Positions 4,228 through 26,061 of a DNA stretch of 28,038 bases are shown here, piece after piece (positions within the stretch are counted from its first letter, which is position 1; every line of letters starts with the position of its first letter). A program made the position numbers and the translations under genes. Source of the stretch: a virus; the IMG/VR virus record IMGVR_UViG_3300035205_001601, positions 1 to 28,038 of that record; one strand, written 5' to 3'. The notes beneath the pieces were generated by a model that was not told the DNA's origin, ran no database searches, and was given only the letters and a program-made list of their open reading frames with translations.

Positions 4228-4997
4228 TAATATTCACCTGAGTAACTTGTATGAAAATCATCTATCGGACCCATATTTTGTACATCTGCTACTTCTAAAG
4301 GTATAAATTCACCTGTCATGGGATTCCACATAAAAAGTTTAAATTGGGGAGTTGTTTCTTGAGTCATGTCACCGCCACATCCACAATTTTCATATACGTG
4401 TACGGATTCTTCGGTGTTTCTAACAGGAATTTTTCTTGCACTCATGTAGCGTTTTAAAAGACCCTGTTTATATGCTGAAGCAAATACTCGCTCAATTATT
4501 TCGACGTCTTCTCTAGTGATTGGATCACGAGAACCTTTACCATCTATTTTATCTAATGCTTTTGCAACAGCAGTAGACAGCTCTATATCTTTTATTCTAG
4601 GAAGTAATTCTGTTACAACATATAGTTTAAAGCGACCTTCGTCGGAATAACCCATTGGGTAACTTTCCTTACCTGTTTTTGGACCAAATGTAACTTTTTC
4701 CTCATCTTCCTTTATTTTAAGTTGGATGATATCTTTAAATTTTGGGGATTCGGCAATCATATCCAAAATTAACTCTTTGGTGTCTTCATCCATTTTCTGA
4801 AGAAGAGCAGTTACTCCATTGGCATTACCTTCTTGAATATAGTTTGCTGTATTGTTATAATTGTTAATGTCTTTTAGACTTTCACCGGTTGAAGATTGTA
4901 AATATTCGTCTGTCTCTTGTGCATAAGTACGAATATTTTCGGCTATACGCCGCAACTGTTCAGCCAATGAACTTTCTATCAGTGAACGAAATTTCAT
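4227..4997 (-). CDS. Putative virion protein with capsid-targeting-like N-terminus
   Basis: 256 residues. The N-terminus MKFRSLIESSLAEQ resembles a T4 internal-protein signal with an L-I-E site before Ser. The body is largely helical and charged; near residue 205 a Cys-rich motif ENCGCGGD could bind a metal or form disulphides. The C-terminus (KLFMWNPMTGEFIPLE) is aromatic. An SD-like TAGGAG lies before the ATG, and a late promoter box lies 27 nt upstream, so this is likely the first gene of a late operon running down to the window start. Function unknown. Confidence 0.8.
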   Translation of the reverse strand: MKFRSLIESSLAEQLRRIAENIRTYAQETDEYLQSSTGESLKDINNYNNTANYIQEGNANGVTALLQKMDEDTKELILDMIAESPKFKDIIQLKIKEDEEKVTFGPKTGKESYPMGYSDEGRFKLYVVTELLPRIKDIELSTAVAKALDKIDGKGSRDPITREDVEIIERVFASAYKQGLLKRYMSARKIPVRNTEESVHVYENCGCGGDMTQETTPQFKLFMWNPMTGEFIPLEVADVQNMGPIDDFHTSYSGEY

Positions 4998-5208: not shown

Positions 5209-5295
5209 TGGCTCCGGGGGGTGGGATCGAACCACCACGTCATTTCAGACACCAGATAAACGGTCTGGCATGTCTACCAATTCCATCACCCCGGA
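5209..5295 (-). tRNA. tRNA with long variable arm and apparent GUU (Asn) anticodon
   Basis: The 87-nt cloverleaf is complete. Its 7-bp acceptor is perfect (TCCGGGG with CCCCGGA), with discriminator G and encoded CCA. The D arm is ATG...CAT with a GG-containing loop. The anticodon stem is CCAGA/TCTGG with loop CCGTTTA. The variable arm has 15 nt with a GTC/GAC stem, and the T arm is GGTGG-TTCGATC-CCACC. The long arm and D loop are Leu/Ser-like, but the loop centre reads GTT, which pairs with Asn codons; no Leu, Ser or Tyr anticodon fits. Position 33 is C instead of the near-universal U. The gene begins 7 nt after the stop of the synthetase-like gene, so both are probably co-transcribed. The amino-acid identity is uncertain. 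Confidence 0.85.
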
Positions 5296-5302
5296 TCATT
5301 TT

Positions 5303-6118
5303 TTATCCAACTACATCAAATGCTCGTATAAGTCGTGTCATTCCAATACCGCCGCCTGTGCGAGGTATGAAATCATAACTTAAAAACTCTTCAAGTTCTG
5401 CTTCTACACGTTCTTTACCAAACTGACCATATAGTAAATCTGCATACATTCCATTACTGATTGTATGGAATTGATCACGCATTTCGTCTGTATCTGAACT
5501 ACGTTCTGCACTACCTATTGTTTCCTGGCCTGCAATTATAACATCTATTTTTGCGGCTGTACCATCACCATTTTGTTTCATATTCCAAAAAGGCGATGTA
5601 TGATTTGGAAAGTTCATTATCATTTGAGCATTACCATATTTTCCGTACATAGCATTTTCTTCTGCATGTGTTAATTCTTCAACGTTGAACTCTATTGCCC
5701 AATCTTCGTAGTTTTTATCTACTATACTACCAAAACCTAAATATGCACATAATTCTATTTCCATTTTATATAAATCATTCATATTGCCAGGCATTTCAAA
5801 TTCAAACATTGGAAATATTAAATCATGTCTACCTTCTATTATATTTGGTTCTTGTCTATAAGATGTGGAGACACAAAAAAAGCCAGGTACTTCTGGCTTT
5901 GATAATAATTCATGTTCTAACCACATTTGGCCTGTTTGTGGAAGCGGCCAAACATTACCGGCGTAATTATAAGTTGAAACTGTTGTTGGATCTTCGCATG
6001 CCGCTAATATGCTTAATCTGTTTTGTGTGTGTACTTCCAAGAAACCTTTTTCTAAAAAAAAGGACCTTAATAGGCCCGTTGCTTCAGTAAATTTTCTTGG
6101 ATCAATTAACTGCGTCAT
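5303..6118 (-). CDS. Class IIb aminoacyl-tRNA synthetase-like enzyme (Asn/Asp type), no anticodon domain
   Basis: 271 residues forming a class II synthetase catalytic core. Motif 1 is near residues 20-35 (EKGFLEVHT). Motif 2 has Arg88-x-Glu90 followed by FPMFEFEM. The amino-acid pocket region GQETIGSAER (197-206) resembles the E-x-x-G-G-S-x-R of AsnRS. Motif 3 is GGGIGMTR with Arg262. The N-terminal OB-fold anticodon-binding domain of AsnRS/AspRS/LysRS is absent, so the protein is much shorter than a normal AsnRS (about 430-470 residues). Two readings are possible: it charges the adjacent tRNA, or, like archaeal AsnRS paralogues lacking the anticodon domain, it makes asparagine. SD AAGGAG precedes the ATG; a CATAAATA box lies 50 nt upstream. 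Confidence 0.85.
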   Translation of the reverse strand: MTQLIDPRKFTEATGLLRSFFLEKGFLEVHTQNRLSILAACEDPTTVSTYNYAGNVWPLPQTGQMWLEHELLSKPEVPGFFCVSTSYRQEPNIIEGRHDLIFPMFEFEMPGNMNDLYKMEIELCAYLGFGSIVDKNYEDWAIEFNVEELTHAEENAMYGKYGNAQMIMNFPNHTSPFWNMKQNGDGTAAKIDVIIAGQETIGSAERSSDTDEMRDQFHTISNGMYADLLYGQFGKERVEAELEEFLSYDFIPRTGGGIGMTRLIRAFDVVG

Positions 6119-6185: not shown

Positions 6186-6749
6186 TTATTTCTGGTGGAT
6201 ACCGTATCCCTTGTGTCCTAATAGAGACATAAACATACTAGGAAGATTATTATCTACTGTTCTTACACTTTCAGGTAGTGCGTCCCAACTAACAAGATGT
6301 GGATGTGTTTTATTTTCTTCGTTTATTTCTTGTCCATATCTCCATCCTGTTGCCATTTTATGATCTACCCAACGATTATGTCTATACTTGGCAAAATCAT
6401 GTGCTAAATGTTCATAATGATCGTCGCCAATTTCTTCATTAACTTCATCTAAATTTGCTTCTAGTTCTAAAGAATTTGTACCTTCAATTAGAAAGTCAAT
6501 ATCTTCGTTTATTAGTTTATTAAGAGCTTCGGCAACATTGTCGCCTTGTTCGGCATCCATATCTTCTATTAAATTAATATCATAACAATGTGCTCCATCC
6601 ATAATGTGATGCACAAGCGAAACATTATCTTCATCTGATTGAACAGTTTCTCCTAAATGATCTTGAATAGTATTATAATATGCTTTAATTAGATCTGTAT
6701 CCAATTCATTCTCGACAACCAATCTAACATGATGTTTAAATGCTTCCAT
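6186..6749 (-). CDS. RyR-domain protein
   Basis: 187 residues. The first about 105 residues are acidic and helical without a recognised family. Residues about 112-185 match the RyR (ryanodine receptor repeat) domain pattern: a Trp in RHNRWVDHK, then GWRYG, then KTHPHLVSWDALPES, then a D-N-N leading to a terminal helix (SLLGHKGYGI). RyR domains occur in animal calcium channels and as isolated domains in bacteria and phages, where their role is unclear; ligand binding has been proposed. No SD is visible. A promoter-like box (GGTAAATA) ends 5 nt before the ATG, suggesting a leaderless message. It is the first gene after a run of small membrane and fibre genes. Confidence 0.8.
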   Translation of the reverse strand: MEAFKHHVRLVVENELDTDLIKAYYNTIQDHLGETVQSDEDNVSLVHHIMDGAHCYDINLIEDMDAEQGDNVAEALNKLINEDIDFLIEGTNSLELEANLDEVNEEIGDDHYEHLAHDFAKYRHNRWVDHKMATGWRYGQEINEENKTHPHLVSWDALPESVRTVDNNLPSMFMSLLGHKGYGIHQK

Positions 6750-13331: not shown

Positions 13332-14603
13332 TTAAAACTGATCTTCTTCGGTGGACCCCGATAATGCTGTAGTCGAAGATGATCCGCCCGAAACTGCTTT
13401 AGATACTTCATCAAAGTAACCTGCGCCTACTTCTCGCTGGTGTTTAGTAGCAGTATATCCATCAATTTCAGCCGCAAATTCTTTATCTTGCAGTTCACAG
13501 AACGCAGGCATTCCTACTTTATTGTATTTGGATGCTAGATCAAACATGTTATAATTTAAACTATGGAAGCCAGCAAGTGTAATAAATTGATATTTGTATC
13601 CCATTTCGCCTATTGCATCTTGAAAATTTACAATGTCTTTCTCATCTAAATTTGCTCTCCAATTAAACGAAGGAGAACAATTATATGCTAACATTTGATT
13701 TGGATACTCTTTGCGAATTGTTTCTGCAAACTTTTGTGCTTGATCTAAATTTGGCTTAGATGTTTCCATCCAAAGTAAATCACAATATGGAGCAAAGGCA
13801 AGTCCTCTAGCAACACATCGTTCAAAAGACTGTGCAGGATCTAAACGATAAAAACCTTCCTCTGTTCTATCGTCACTGATAAATGGATGATCGCGTTCGT
13901 CTATATTACTTGTTAATAGTGTAGCACTTTCTGCGTCTGTACGAGCAACAATAACAGTAGGTACTCGCATAACATCTGCCGCAAGTCTTGCCGCGTTTAA
14001 GTTCCTTATATGCTGTTGCACAGGAATTAAAACTTTACCGCCCATATGTCCGCATTTCTTTTCAGATGCTAATTGATCTTCAAAATGGACACCAGCGGCT
14101 CCGGCTTCTATATATGCTTTAGTAATTTCAAATGCATTTAGTGCTCCGCCAAATCCTGCTTCACAGTCTGCTACAATAGGAGCAAACCAAAATGTATCGT
14201 CATCTTCTAATTGCCCTATTTGATCTGAACGCTCAAATGCATTGTTAATCTTTTTTACTAATTCGGGTCCGCTATTAGCGGGGTATAAACTTTGATCTGG
14301 ATACGTAGTTCCTGCTGTGTTATTATCAGCGGCTACTTGCCACCCCGACAGGTATATTGATTGTAATCCAGCTCGTACCATCTGAACCGCCTGATTGCCA
14401 GTAACTGCACCTAATGCTCGCACGAATGGTTCAAAGTTTATATAATCCCATAAGTTCTCTGCACCCATGTGGGCAAGAGTATGTTTTATATCTATGGAAC
14501 TAGATAAACGATAAACATCATTAATTGAATAGTCGCGTTTCACGTTACTAAAACGCTTATGGTGAGTACGGACGAGGCGGGCAAATTCTTCATGTGTGCC
14601 CAT
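13332..14603 (-). CDS. aceA: Isocitrate lyase
   Basis: 423 residues, close to the usual bacterial length (about 430). The signature KKCGH is at 182-186 with catalytic Cys184 in the loop [12 protein letters not shown]. The Mg-binding segment ADCEAGFGG (Asp146, Glu148) and downstream family motifs NCSPSFNW and a C-terminal [13 protein letters not shown] are all intact. It cleaves isocitrate to succinate and glyoxylate, the first step of the glyoxylate shunt. No malate synthase is in the window. A host-derived auxiliary metabolic gene is the likely explanation. SD AGGAG lies before the ATG, and a late-type box 37 nt upstream, so expression appears late. Base composition is not obviously different from neighbours. 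Confidence 0.97.
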
Positions 14604-14648: not shown

Positions 14649-15438
14649 TTAACTCTTTATAAGTAACGCATTTGATGATCTTTTTTAACGAATTTGGAGC
14701 TATCATTTTTAATACAAGAACGTCTTCTATTGCTTTGCAATATATACTACAAACAGACCATTTATATATGTATCTTAATCCGCCACCTCTACGGCCAAAG
14801 CCTGATCCAGGAGTTGTAGGGCCCCACGCTCCTGCACGACTAGGAGTTCCCATATGACTACCATGAGTTGCCATTCCTACTTTATGATGAAAATTTATCC
14901 GTTTAACATTGGGACTATACATATATTCAGTTTTATCTATATTGTCTAAATAGTTTTTAATTTTAACAATGTCTTTTTCTACAAAATCATGATCTCCATA
15001 AAATTCTACTTTCCATCTATACTTTCTGAACCAAAGAGTATCTTTAGCAACTACTTCATAATCTTCTACCATCAAATCACTATGAGTATTATTCATAGGA
15101 CCGTATACGTCTATAACTAAATTTTTAAAAGATTCAACAAAACATAATGTCCAAAAAGGATCCTTAAAATAAAAAGTTGTTGTCCATTCACGCCGCATTT
15201 TAAAATCTTTACCTTTTTGTAACTTATTTTGTCTAAGGTACAATTCGATTTTAAGTATATCTTCATCGGTTAATAAAGGTGCATCTTCTTCCGGTGTTTT
15301 TCTAAAGTGAAGAAATCCATAATTAGACGTATGATGCACTCCAAACAGACGTACTTTATAAAGAAAGTTATTATAATAAGCACGAGGCGCCACGTGGTAT
15401 GTGCAACACTGTTTTAGTTCATCCAGTTTGCTTTGCAT
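14644..15438 (-). CDS. Unknown protein coupled to ClpA
   Basis: 264 residues, not recognised. The N-terminal about 175 residues are mixed alpha/beta with many aromatics and basic residues (FLYKVRLFGVHHTSNYGFLHF, split by charged loops). A Gly-rich linker (about 193-220, GSHMGTPSRAGAW) follows, then a C-terminal domain with two Cys residues (KWSVCSIYCKAIED) and a basic helical tail. Its start lies inside the end of clpA (20-nt overlap), so the two are translationally coupled. That makes a role with ClpA, such as an adaptor or substrate, worth considering, but nothing in the sequence proves it. Confidence 0.75.
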   Translation of the reverse strand: MQSKLDELKQCCTYHVAPRAYYNNFLYKVRLFGVHHTSNYGFLHFRKTPEEDAPLLTDEDILKIELYLRQNKLQKGKDFKMRREWTTTFYFKDPFWTLCFVESFKNLVIDVYGPMNNTHSDLMVEDYEVVAKDTLWFRKYRWKVEFYGDHDFVEKDIVKIKNYLDNIDKTEYMYSPNVKRINFHHKVGMATHGSHMGTPSRAGAWGPTTPGSGFGRRGGGLRYIYKWSVCSIYCKAIEDVLVLKMIAPNSLKKIIKCVTYKELK

Positions 15439-17659
15439 TTACTTTTACTTCATCTGTTTCTAAATCAATGCCTATAACAATTTCACAATCCCGCACATCG
15501 TTATAAACTATTAGTTTACTAATTGGCTTTTTAATTTTTGTATCTATTAACCTTTTCATAGGCCTTGCACCCATAGTAGGAGTAAATCCTTTTTTACATA
15601 GCCAATCTAATAAATCCTTTTGCGGTACTAATGTAATATGTCGTGGTTTTAATAACTCTTCAACTTCATTTAAGAATTTAGTAGTAATTTTTGAAATAAA
15701 CTTTTCGTCTAGTTTATTAAAATTAACAGTAGCATCTAGTCTGTTGCGAAACTCTGGTGCAAAAAACTTTTTAACAGCAACACCTGCGGCATGATCATCT
15801 GTTCCACCTGCAAATCCAATTGCTACTTTTTCACTGTCCGATGCTCCTAAATTAGATGTCATTATTAAGATAATGTTTTTAGTTGATATAGTTTTTCCAT
15901 TACTAGATGTCACAACACCACTATCCATTATTTGTAGTAATATATTCAAGACATCTTGGTGTGCTTTTTCTACTTCATCTAATAGCAATACACAATTAGG
16001 ATTATTTTCTAGTTCATTAATAAGTTTACCACTTCCTGATCCACCATCTTCATATCCCACATAGCCGGGAGGTGATCCTATCAACTTTGCTATTGAATGT
16101 CTTTCTTGATATTCACTCATATCAAAGCGGACAAGTTTTAATGCTAAATTATCAGCAAGTTGTTTTGCTGTTTCTGTTTTACCTACACCAGTAGGTCCTG
16201 TAAATAAAAATGAACCAATTGGCTTTTCAGGATCTTTTAATCCTGCTTGTGATATATGAATAGCATCTGTTAATTTTTCAATTGCTTCATCTTGCCCAAA
16301 TACTTTGTGTTTAATTTTTTCATCTATGTTTATTACAGCACTAGAACTTGTTTCTGTTGTATTAATTATTTCTATAGGAATACGAGTTTGGTGTGCTACT
16401 TCTCGTTTAATGTCTATATCTTCTATATGTGTTTTACGTTCTGTTATAGGTAGTATACGTTGTCTGGCCAATGCACTATCTATTAAATCTAATGCTTTAT
16501 CTGGCAGATATTTATTCATCATATGCTTAACACTTAATTCTACCGCTGTTTTTATCGACTTACGTTCAATAGTAATGCCGTGAAAGTCTTCATAATATGA
16601 AGCCAATCCTTCTATAATTTTAATAGTGTCTTCGGTACTAGGTTGATGTATGTCTAATTTTGTAAAACGTCTCACTAATGCAGAATCTTTTTCAAAGTAC
16701 TTTCTATAATCTTCATGTGTGGTTGCACCTATACAGTGTAGTTTTCCTTTTTCTAATGCAGGCTTTAACATATTAGCAACATCCATACTACCATTACCAC
16801 CAGTACCTGCTCCCATTATCATATGTATTTCGTCAATGAATAAAATACATTTTTCCATGTTTTGTAATATGTCCAATACTGCTTTAAGGCGTTCTTCTAA
16901 ATCACCACGATATTTTGTTCCTGCTAATAAAGCACCAATGTCTAATAGATAAACTGTATTACCTTTTACTGTATCGGGTACTTGGTCTTCGGATATAAGT
17001 TTTGCTAATCCTTCTGCCATTGCAGTTTTACCTACACCTGCTTCACCTACCATTATTACATTATTTTTCTTTCGTCGTGCAAGGACATGAAGTAATTCAT
17101 GTAGTTCCTTTTCTCTTCCTATAATGGGATCTATTTTTCCCTCTGTTGCTTGTGTATTTAAATTTACACAAAATTCTTCTAATACTTTTTCTGCATCCAT
17201 CCCGTCAATGCCAGAAACTTGGTATTCATCAATAAGTTGTTGCTGGATTAATTTAATAATGCTATCACGATCCACTCCATGCATTGCCAAAAAATAATAT
17301 GCATGACTTTGTCGTTCTGCTAATATACTTAAAAATAGATCCTTTGCTTGAATGGCTTGTCTTCTATTAAACAATGCTTGAGTAAATGCCCTATTAAATG
17401 TTCTTTCTAAGGTTGATGTTTTACGAGGCTCAACAGGGCCAGGAACCATAATTTCATTCATATTATTATTAACATGTTCAACTATAGATATACGAACTTC
17501 TTCAGGATTAGGACCAACACTTCCTACTATATGTTTAACTTCATCTTCTTCTAATAGAACAACCAACAGGTGTTCTATTGTTACATATTCGTGATTAAGA
17601 GATTTGGCTAAACCAAATGCTTTACTTATGATATGTTCTACTTTATCGTGATCAGGCAT
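15419..17659 (-). CDS. clpA: ClpA-type AAA+ unfoldase of the Clp protease
   Basis: 746 residues, full length for ClpA. There is an N-domain (residues about 1-150) with the Clp-N pattern, then two AAA+ modules: first Walker A GEAGVGKT (205-212) and Walker B LFIDEIH (273-279); second Walker A GPTGVGKT (488-495) and Walker B LLLDEVE (558-564). There is no long coiled-coil insert, which separates it from ClpB. The IGF tripeptide at 614-616 corresponds to the loop that docks ClpA on ClpP, and a complete ClpP is encoded at 25456-26061. The start overlaps deformylase by 8 nt. ClpA would unfold substrates for ClpP degradation; phage or host targets are unknown. Confidence 0.95.
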   Translation of the reverse strand: MPDHDKVEHIISKAFGLAKSLNHEYVTIEHLLVVLLEEDEVKHIVGSVGPNPEEVRISIVEHVNNNMNEIMVPGPVEPRKTSTLERTFNRAFTQALFNRRQAIQAKDLFLSILAERQSHAYYFLAMHGVDRDSIIKLIQQQLIDEYQVSGIDGMDAEKVLEEFCVNLNTQATEGKIDPIIGREKELHELLHVLARRKKNNVIMVGEAGVGKTAMAEGLAKLISEDQVPDTVKGNTVYLLDIGALLAGTKYRGDLEERLKAVLDILQNMEKCILFIDEIHMIMGAGTGGNGSMDVANMLKPALEKGKLHCIGATTHEDYRKYFEKDSALVRRFTKLDIHQPSTEDTIKIIEGLASYYEDFHGITIERKSIKTAVELSVKHMMNKYLPDKALDLIDSALARQRILPITERKTHIEDIDIKREVAHQTRIPIEIINTTETSSSAVINIDEKIKHKVFGQDEAIEKLTDAIHISQAGLKDPEKPIGSFLFTGPTGVGKTETAKQLADNLALKLVRFDMSEYQERHSIAKLIGSPPGYVGYEDGGSGSGKLINELENNPNCVLLLDEVEKAHQDVLNILLQIMDSGVVTSSNGKTISTKNIILIMTSNLGASDSEKVAIGFAGGTDDHAAGVAVKKFFAPEFRNRLDATVNFNKLDEKFISKITTKFLNEVEELLKPRHITLVPQKDLLDWLCKKGFTPTMGARPMKRLIDTKIKKPISKLIVYNDVRDCEIVIGIDLETDEVKVNAKQTG

Positions 17660-18149
17660 ATACTTTTTTCTTGTTAGTTTTTCTTTGTTTTTGTCTACCC
17701 ATTCGCAATGCTACTGGCTTCGCTTTACTTGTAAACAAAACACCATTTAGGTGATCAAACTCATGCTGAAATATTCGTCCAGATAATCCATTTAACCGTC
17801 GGGTTTTTGTTTTACCATTATAAGTTTGCCATTCTGCTTCTATCCATTCAGGTCTGGAAATACCCATATAAAGATTAGGAAAACTTAAACAACCTTCGGG
17901 AAGTATAATTTCCTTTTCACTATATTCAATTATCTTAGGATTAAAACAAGCAATTATACTAGGTATATCTATAACAAATACCTTAAACTGTACACCTACT
18001 TGTGGTCCTGCTAATCCTATGCCATTTGCTTGTCGCATTGTTTTAGCCATCTTTAAAATAAGTTCTTCTGGATCAACTACATCTTGATCAAAATCAAACG
18101 GTAATGTTTCTGCTTTTAATATTGGGTTGTTTTCGTAAACCAATTTCAT
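17652..18149 (-). CDS. def: Peptide deformylase
   Basis: 165 residues. All three family motifs are present: GIGLAGPQ (43-50, normally GxGLAAPQ), EGCLS (85-89, metal ligand Cys87) and HEFDH (129-133, ligands His129 and His133, catalytic Glu130). It removes the formyl group from nascent N-terminal Met. Phages commonly carry shortened deformylases; this one adds a basic C-terminal tail (about 20 residues, ending in RMGRQKQRKTNKKKVYA). The start has no SD; CATAAATA lies 5 nt upstream. It overlaps clpA by 8 nt, so deformylase and ClpA are in one operon. Confidence 0.95.
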   Translation of the reverse strand: MKLVYENNPILKAETLPFDFDQDVVDPEELILKMAKTMRQANGIGLAGPQVGVQFKVFVIDIPSIIACFNPKIIEYSEKEIILPEGCLSFPNLYMGISRPEWIEAEWQTYNGKTKTRRLNGLSGRIFQHEFDHLNGVLFTSKAKPVALRMGRQKQRKTNKKKVYA

Positions 18150-18165: not shown

Positions 18166-18987
18166 TTATTTTTTTAATATATCTTTAAGAGGTAATTCTA
18201 AATCTTCTTCAGACAAGATTGGCACTTTAATTTCTACTTGAATAATAAGATCACCCGATCGTTGTCCTCCGCGACCAGGCATACCTTGTTCTGGAATTCG
18301 TAATTTAGTATTAGGTTGAGTTCCTTTATTAATTTTTATACTAAATTCTTGTCCTGATAAACCTGATACAAATTCTTCACATCCTATTGCCGCTTCTAGT
18401 GCATTAACTGTTACTTTAGTAATTAAGTCTCGCCGATTAAATCGTTTAAAACGAGGATGTTCTAGTATTCTTATAATAACATATAAATCTCCTTTGGGCA
18501 ACTCTGAAATGTCATGAGCACCCATACCTGCAAATCGTATTTTATCGCCGTGCTCTACGCCTCGAGGTACATTTAAATTAAGTTGAACAGTTTGATTATT
18601 TCCTAGATTAACATTAAGTTGTCTTTTAATTCCAGTATATACTTCTTGCAGTGATATATCATAATTAATTTGAACATCTCTATTTCTTTGAGGTTGTTGG
18701 TGAAACCCAAATCCTCCTCTAAAAATTTCATGGAGATTGCCAAAAGGATCACCTCTATTCACAAAAGGATTAAATCCTTGTCGCGGATCTACTTGTGATG
18801 CTTCCCATGTTTGTCGTGCGTCCTGATCTTTTATATTTTGATAAGCATCATTGACTTCTTTAAATCTATCATCCGACCCACCATCTCGATCAGGGTGATG
18901 CTTTTGTGCAAGTTTTCTATAAGCAGTTTTTATGTCAGAATCTGTAGCATTTTTATCGACTCCGAGAATTGTCCAGGGGTCACTCAT
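18166..18987 (-). CDS. DnaJ/CbpA-type J-domain co-chaperone
   Basis: 273 residues. A J-domain occupies residues about 3-65, with the HPD motif at 31-33 needed to stimulate Hsp70 ATPase. A short Gly/Phe-containing linker follows (GGFGFHQQ), then C-terminal substrate-binding domains (VPRGVEHGDKIRFAGMGAHD, KGDLYVII). There is no Cys-x2-Cys-x-Gly-x-Gly zinc region, so it is CbpA-like (class B), not class A DnaJ. It probably works with host DnaK, since no DnaK is visible here. A strong sigma70 promoter directly abuts the start, suggesting earlier expression than the structural genes. It ends 16 nt before deformylase. Confidence 0.92.
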   Translation of the reverse strand: MSDPWTILGVDKNATDSDIKTAYRKLAQKHHPDRDGGSDDRFKEVNDAYQNIKDQDARQTWEASQVDPRQGFNPFVNRGDPFGNLHEIFRGGFGFHQQPQRNRDVQINYDISLQEVYTGIKRQLNVNLGNNQTVQLNLNVPRGVEHGDKIRFAGMGAHDISELPKGDLYVIIRILEHPRFKRFNRRDLITKVTVNALEAAIGCEEFVSGLSGQEFSIKINKGTQPNTKLRIPEQGMPGRGGQRSGDLIIQVEIKVPILSEEDLELPLKDILKK

Positions 18988-24890: not shown

Positions 24891-25475
24891 TTATTTTGCT
24901 AATTTGCGGTAACAGTTTTGTATACCGACTACTTGCCTCCAACAATCCATTAATGCATGATGCTTACTTGCTTCGGGCATTTCCGGATCTGCTAAAGCAT
25001 ATATTGTTCTACAATCTCGTATTTCCCAAAACTTCCACGGATTGCCTCTACTTAATTTTCTATTATAATCCTCTATTATCATTATGTCAAATATAGAACC
25101 ATTTGACCAAAATGCTTTTGCACCAAAACACCATTTATGAAAATCTGTTAAAACAGTTTCTATTGAATGTCTATTGTCTTGTGCAAATGCTTCTTCTCTA
25201 ATTATGTCGTCTTGTTCTGCCCACCAATCAATTGTGTGGTCATCTATTACTTGACCTAAGTCGACACAACTTTCTAAATCAATACGCCTATAAAAACTAT
25301 GTTTACTATTAAATATTCGTTCTTCTGTTTCTTTCCTAGCATCATTACAAGGATCAAATTTCATTGCCGCGAACGTTAAAATTACTGCATTAGGTTTAGT
25401 TGACAATGTTTCCAAGTCAACCATAACATGCAATTCGCCTGTTCGGTGCGTAGTATTAGTCACCAGGAAGTTCAC
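24891..25475 (-). CDS. DEDD-type 3'-5' exonuclease (DexA-like)
   Basis: 194 residues from a GTG at 25475, or 177 from the ATG at 25424 (MVDLETL). The first gives a 20-nt overlap with clpP, and the second starts at the catalytic strand, so the start is uncertain. The catalytic pattern is that of DEDD exonucleases: VMVDLETL with Asp and Glu, a middle [10 protein letters not shown] with Asp, and [11 protein letters not shown] with His and Asp. The T4 protein DexA has the same motif order. It probably degrades single-stranded nucleic acid, but the substrate cannot be told. Confidence 0.85.
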
Positions 25476-26061
25476 GACTTTCCACTATTTTATCTGCTAA
25501 TCCATAATTAACAGATTCTTGTGCTGTTAAAAAATTATCTCTGTCCATATCATTAATTAATTCTTGATACAATTTACCTTTCGTATTATGCTTTATATAA
25601 ATTTGAGTTAATTCTTCTTTTACTCTGAGTAATTCTTTTGTACGAATTTCAACATCTGATGCTTGTCCACTTGCTCCGCCCATTGGTTGATGTATCATGT
25701 GTCTACTATGCGGTAATATCCAACGTTTATCAGGAGCGCCTGCTTGTGCTAACAGAGACCCCATCGATGCCGCATGGCCCATAACAATGGTACATATATC
25801 TGGTGCGATAAATTGCATTGTATCGTATATTGCCATTCCTGCTGTAACAGTTCCCCCAGGAGAATTTATATACATAAAAATGTCTTTTTCTGCATTCTCA
25901 CTTTCAAGAAACAATAATTGACTCACTGTTAAACTTGCACAATGATCTTCTATTTCATTGTCTAACATTATAATACGGTCTTTAAGCAGTCGACTATATA
26001 TATCGTACGATCGCTCTCCTTTGTCTGTTTGTTCTATTACAATTGGTACTAGATTTGCCAT
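25456..26061 (-). CDS. clpP: ClpP serine protease
   Basis: 201 residues, full length, starting [12 protein letters not shown], like the mature bacterial ClpP N-terminus. The catalytic triad is intact by alignment in memory with E. coli: Ser99 in GHAASMG, His124 in MIHQP, Asp175 in DRDNF. It forms the tetradecameric peptidase chamber that partners ClpA or ClpX; ClpA is encoded at 15419-17659 and keeps an IGF docking loop. It has no propeptide. No SD is present: a sigma70 promoter abuts the start, so a leaderless transcript is likely. Its stop overlaps the exonuclease start region. Confidence 0.96.

Follow-up and report, generated by a model that had tools for sequence, protein, structure and literature searches.

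The window analysed here is the whole stretch of 28,038 nucleotides of IMG/VR virus record IMGVR_UViG_3300035205_001601. Its minus strand carries a gene for a small synthetase-like protein, here called X, followed within a few bases by a tRNA-like gene, and, elsewhere, several genes for protein quality control:

5209-5295, minus strand: class II tRNA-like gene (long variable arm), 87 nt with encoded CCA, U1-A72 and G73 (ARAGORN and hand reading)
5259-5261, minus strand: anticodon GUU of this tRNA, flanked by C33 (5262) and U37 (5258) (ARAGORN and hand reading)
5296-5302, minus strand: spacer of 7 nt that separates the stop codon of X from the 5' end of the tRNA
5303-6118, minus strand: X, 271 aa, class IIb synthetase core (AsnRS-like) lacking an anticodon-binding domain (PF00152, PHROG 29758, alignment and predicted structure)
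15419-17659, 17652-18149, 18166-18987 and 25456-26061, minus strand: protein quality-control genes

The quality-control set comprises a ClpA/B-type ATPase, a peptide deformylase, DnaJ and ClpP. Immediately upstream of X, the gene at 6186-6749 (minus strand) encodes a RyR domain (PF02026, E 1.5e-13), and an isocitrate lyase family gene, an unusual metabolic gene for a phage, is found at 13332-14603 on the same strand (PF00463, E 1.3e-101).

X matches the class II D/K/N synthetase domain of Pfam (PF00152, tRNA-synt_2; E 2.8e-15) and PHROG 29758, a family of unknown function (E 1.5e-123). The original prediction of a 271-residue class IIb core with Arg88 in motif 2 and Arg262 in motif 3 is borne out by this domain match and by the invariance of both arginines in an alignment of 77 sequences, from which rows of the annotated phage collection were left out. 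The AlphaFold model obtained with this alignment has a pLDDT of 93.8. Its nearest solved structures are those of AsnRS with asparaginyl-adenylate (Z 27.8 over 245 residues, rmsd 2.2), followed, in order, by AspRS, archaeal asparagine synthetase, GenX and LysRS, in agreement with the AsnRS-like character that had been claimed for the core. The alignment covers solely AsnRS residues 244-531, so that the N-terminal anticodon-binding domain of AsnRS has no counterpart; X is, therefore, the AsnRS catalytic core minus this domain. Profile and motif alignment places Leu67, Glu106 and Arg206 of X at the AsnRS side-chain pocket positions. At the position of the lysine with which AspRS reads the side-chain carboxylate, X has a leucine, like AsnRS. 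An AspRS-like or LysRS-like pocket is ruled out by the motif alignment, in which the residues match those of AsnRS.

Curated family models give low scores, with 24.6 bits against the asnS model (cut-off 342.6) and 22.6 bits against the asparagine synthetase model NF005055 (cut-off 389). The NCBIfam scores of X are nearly equal for the AspRS, AsnRS, LysRS and asparagine synthetase models and far under every cut-off, which makes X a separate subfamily. Plain membership of the asparagine synthetase family is ruled out by the model score, such an activity being still conceivable. A plasmid search with X found no match.

At 5209-5295 (minus strand), ARAGORN calls a tRNA-Asn with anticodon GTT, which reads by hand as UCCGGGG-U-...-CCAGA-CCGUUUA-UCUGG-...-CCCCGGA-G-CCA, with the discriminator G at 5212 and the CCA encoded at 5209-5211. 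A tRNA with encoded CCA, 7 nt after X, had been described from the outset and is indeed what the locus holds. As the description of a tRNA-Asn, this stands for the GUU anticodon, G73 and CCA, but not for the loop and body. The body is of the Leu/Ser type (class II), with a 15-nt variable arm instead of the short (class I) variable loop of an elongator tRNA-Asn, and the anticodon loop (CCGTTTA) has C33 and U37, unlike that of a normal tRNA-Asn, with its U33 and purine 37. Judging from the loop, C33 and U37 would suit decoding poorly. Rfam finds nothing at gathering score in the window, the best weak match for the tRNA being tRNA-Sec (24 bits).

An IMG/VR search with X yields at least 598 relatives, from which 80 loci were kept; in nearly all of these 80, a tRNA begins within a few bases of the end of the X gene. 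The genes flanking the pair vary from phage to phage. Since the arrangement recurs in nearly all kept loci and the tRNA stem pairs are kept in 53/53 distinct copies, its presence in the window is not chance. Annotated phage members are found in the Prochlorococcus cyanophages P-SSM2, P-SSM5 and P-SSM7, whose proteins are 62-66% identical to X; the gene is named 'tRNA ligase' and has a tRNA-Asn directly downstream. In the tree, phage X forms one clade of 57 rows (SH-aLRT 93), and the tRNA lies directly 3' of X in 51 of them, so that the tandem first noticed in the window is both real and conserved. The other six rows are scattered in the tree, and the tRNA was thus probably gained once, then lost a few times. 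Two jumbo phage genomes, themselves without annotation, also carry X; jumbo-phage X sits outside the phage clade and has no such tRNA. Searches for divergent relatives with these two proteins returned two for one and none for the other.

Side observations at single loci concern the tRNA of locus L089 (5856-5890), shrunk to its joined acceptor strands (TCCGGGGTCCCCCGGAGCCA) by a deletion or an assembly artefact at the hairpin, and the permuted tmRNA genes that are predicted on the other strand, upstream of X, in loci L044, L047, L048 and L049.

The X-linked tRNAs comprise 53 distinct sequences. U1-A72, G73, G34 and U35 are present in all of them, while position 36 is U in 51 and C in 2; GUU together with G73, which had been read as the signature of a tRNA-Asn, is accordingly shared by the window tRNA and 51 of the 53 copies. 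The T-loop and stems are canonical. All pairs of the acceptor, anticodon and T stems are kept (53/53) and, apart from 1-72 and the last T-stem pair, almost all of them occur as several types of pair, which marks this as a selected RNA. The variable arm measures 11-37 nt. U33 is found in 40/53, with C33, A33 or G33 in the 13 others, and a purine at 37 in 11/53, the 42 others having mostly U37. As a control, the other tRNAs of the same phage loci (26 distinct) have U33 and purine 37 without exception. Decoding marks are, thus, relaxed, as opposed to synthetase and amidation marks, which are strict. A review (PMC9976931) attributes Asn identity to the anticodon and the discriminator, and names U1-A72 as the requirement for amidating Asp-tRNA-Asn; by this rule, U1-A72 and the aspartylation marks of a substrate for tRNA-dependent Asn formation are found in all 53 copies. 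The GUC (Asp) anticodon occurs in the X-linked tRNAs of loci L010, L011 and L016, where U1-A72 and G73 are still present.

A covariance model of this tRNA would match every tRNA-Leu, and was, therefore, dropped in favour of a pattern search keyed on the long arm and the GUU anticodon, which strongly altered copies would escape. This pattern found one copy of the tRNA, next to X, in each of the control phage records (5/5), and none in 19 X-bearing cellular genomes.

X is also present in cells. A scan of bacterial and archaeal genomes gave 125 relatives; the 80 that were kept share about 53-73% identity with X, and some are located on long contigs of chromosomal DNA, among them the complete Pasteurella atlantica chromosome. 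No such tRNA was found beside cellular X in the kept loci, phage-looking contigs excepted. Cellular X is found instead near pyrimidine genes: PyrE/F or PyrD lies within 5 ORFs of X in 23/70 cellular loci, in Bacteroidota, Pseudomonadota, Dependentiae, Patescibacteria and Myxococcota, and the most frequent direct neighbours are PyrF and DHODH. For example, X, pyrF and a phosphoribosyltransferase gene are consecutive in P. atlantica, with pyrD divergent. This run is closely preceded (locus L135, about 4800-4920) by a short ORF resembling a leader and by a hairpin with a stretch of T, an arrangement that recalls pyrimidine attenuation. A short phosphoribosyltransferase related to that of P. atlantica is encoded near X in 8 phage loci; it is weakly PyrE-like and has no match in the annotated phage collection. 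X of Patescibacteria mostly adjoins unrelated genes. Argininosuccinate lyase (ArgH) directly precedes X in four loci from two phyla (L097, L147, L160 and L161), which hints at arginine and at a link that may be wider than pyrimidines.

The gene content of X-bearing genomes points in the same direction. CarB is absent from 20 of 22 such genomes, and PyrB exceeds its cut-off in two, compared with both enzymes in 14/14 control genomes. The exceptions are G012 (CarB and PyrB), G016 (PyrB and PyrC) and G004, whose CarB adjoins a weak carbamoyltransferase match. In the order of Aureispira (a fixed sample of 100 genomes, 6 with X), PyrB is found in 0/6 carriers vs 85/94 others (one-sided p 4e-6) and CarB in 0/6 vs 84/94 (one-sided p 7e-6), and in Pasteurellaceae (81 genomes, 3 with X), CarB is found in 0/3 carriers vs 52/78 others (p 0.04), p values that overstate independence, as many X genomes are draft MAGs with gaps and the carriers within an order are related. 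In bacteria, X replaces CarB and PyrB rather than accompanying them, and the genomic evidence gives good support to its tie to pyrimidine synthesis in many of them. PyrC-like proteins occur in 12/22 X genomes, so that X may stop at carbamoyl-aspartate; an E. coli-type PyrC over cut-off is found in none of the 22, and neither PyrC type was found in P. atlantica and Midichloriaceae. A full-length AsnRS is encoded in 16 of the 22 genomes.

Since bacterial relatives of X lie among pyrimidine genes, in genomes without the usual first enzymes of the pathway, the X-tRNA pair of phages may serve the making of DNA and RNA building blocks rather than translation. X would be an AsnRS catalytic core turned into a metabolic enzyme, standing in for CarAB and PyrB in bacteria, and in some genomes for PyrC too, with a product feeding dihydroorotate dehydrogenase (PyrD), then PyrE/PyrF. 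As the pocket is Asn-like and CarB, PyrB and PyrC are all missing from P. atlantica, X may use ATP, bicarbonate and asparagine to give dihydroorotate, the most economical reaction, for which no carbamoyl phosphate would be needed. A carbamoyl-adenylate would be formed on the alpha-amine, and the side-chain amide would then close the ring. TsaC, which makes threonylcarbamoyl-adenylate, provides an in-principle precedent for such chemistry. Asparagine or aspartate is likely to be the substrate of X, and a place for X in the pyrimidine pathway is reasonably probable.

Phages would carry X as a nucleotide-supply gene. Their tRNA appears marked for aspartylation or asparaginylation (G34-U35-U/C36, G73) and for GatCAB amidation (U1-A72) rather than for good decoding, and could act as a non-translational Asp-to-Asn carrier: host AspRS and GatCAB would make asparagine on the tRNA, which would then supply X in hosts supposed to be low in free asparagine. 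The GUC copies that keep U1-A72 suggest, from their sequences, that a carrier role fits better than decoding. The tRNA is not essential to the chemistry of X, since cellular X works with no dedicated tRNA and some phage lineages lost theirs. Its role is the weakest step of the account, and the tRNA as a non-decoding partner of X is a possibility that falls somewhat short of even chances. Much the same tentative standing applies to the account as a whole, that is, a pyrimidine-precursor enzyme using asparagine together with a phage tRNA acting as a non-decoding Asp/Asn carrier. Its strongest form, a carbamoyl-phosphate-free start of pyrimidine synthesis by an AsnRS-derived enzyme, in diverse bacteria and in marine phages carrying a private non-decoding tRNA for asparagine making, is rather unlikely to hold in every part.

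The original prediction suggested that the pair would have a purpose in a host lacking AsnRS, and X could accordingly be a minimal AsnRS charging the adjoining tRNA with Asn to decode AAC/AAU during infection, independently of the host. The AsnRS-like fold and pocket, the tRNA with GUU, G73 and canonical T-loop and stems, and the tight, conserved tandem all agree with it, and to this extent the prediction is supported. The decoding role is not: X lacks an anticodon-binding domain in spite of the nearly invariant anticodon, U33 is lost from 13 and purine 37 from 42 of the 53 tRNAs, unlike the 26/26 neighbouring phage tRNAs, and two distinct copies have GUC. Moreover, cellular relatives do without the tRNA, 16/22 X genomes have a normal full-length AsnRS, and both gene position and CarB/PyrB replacement connect bacterial X with pyrimidine synthesis. 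Decoding as the purpose is, therefore, unlikely. Alternatively, X may work in pyrimidine synthesis with a functionally separate tRNA, either a passenger moving with X or a defence against host anticodon nucleases, acting as decoy or replacement. Cellular X needs no tRNA, several tRNA losses occurred within the phage clade, and jumbo phages carry X without it. Nevertheless, the tRNA is directly 3' of X in 51/57 clade members despite differing flanking genes, was not found elsewhere in the phage records scanned, and keeps its Asp/Asn and amidation marks strictly while the decoding marks are not kept, which leaves a separate tRNA with roughly one chance in five.

It had also been proposed that the enzyme makes asparagine and that the tRNA is unrelated. 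The 51/57 linkage speaks against the second part. The first can be recast as X making asparagine from aspartate and ammonia, like the archaeal AsnRS-related enzyme, for use by the tRNA. The archaeal structures 3reu and 3rl6 also lack an anticodon domain and have a similar fold (Z 24), and the pocket of X is AsnRS-like. However, the score of 22.6 bits against a model cut-off of 389 speaks against it, and the CarB/PyrB loss and pyr neighbourhood would be left unexplained, making this reading quite improbable. The prediction thus pointed to a real finding with, probably, another reason behind it: a synthetase-derived metabolic enzyme with a private tRNA, not a decoding aid for AsnRS-less hosts.

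Should X bypass CarAB and PyrB, the pyrimidine pathway, which is taught as universal, would have a second way to begin, in free-living and parasitic genomes and in those of Patescibacteria that current annotation treats as incomplete, and a gene that is common in marine phages and labelled 'unknown function' would turn out to be one for nucleotide supply. A tRNA that is a carrier and not a decoder would be a phage tRNA kept for metabolism. If X charges the tRNA instead, the pair would consist of a synthetase of very small size and a tRNA dedicated to it, which would be of use in work on the genetic code.

No description of X, the X-linked tRNA or the pyrimidine bypass was found in the open-access full-text literature, subscription papers and preprints being outside this scope. 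The 'tRNA ligase' of P-SSM2, P-SSM5 and P-SSM7 (PHROG 29758) is the same gene as X, and no functional description of it beyond the annotation was found in the open-access papers searched. X shares with AsnRS the class IIb catalytic core, motifs 2 and 3 and the aligned Asn-pocket residues, but AsnRS has the N-terminal anticodon-binding domain and is itself encoded alongside X in 16/22 genomes. The archaeal AsnRS-related asparagine synthetases (3reu, 3rl6 and 3p8t) resemble X as free-standing AsnRS-type cores of similar size (Z 24); they are only about 20% identical to X, and X differs further by its association with pyrimidine genes and, in phages, with a tRNA. The bacterial tRNA-Asn of the Asp-tRNA/GatCAB route offers the same GUU, G73, U1-A72 and marks for aspartylation and amidation as the X-linked tRNA (PMC9976931), which differs from it by its long variable arm, C33, A33 or G33 in many copies, mostly U37 and some GUC anticodons. 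Finally, X occupies the place of CarAB/PyrB/PyrC, beside pyrD and pyrE/F and where CarB and PyrB are missing, with a fold unrelated to these enzymes and a reaction that is predicted only.
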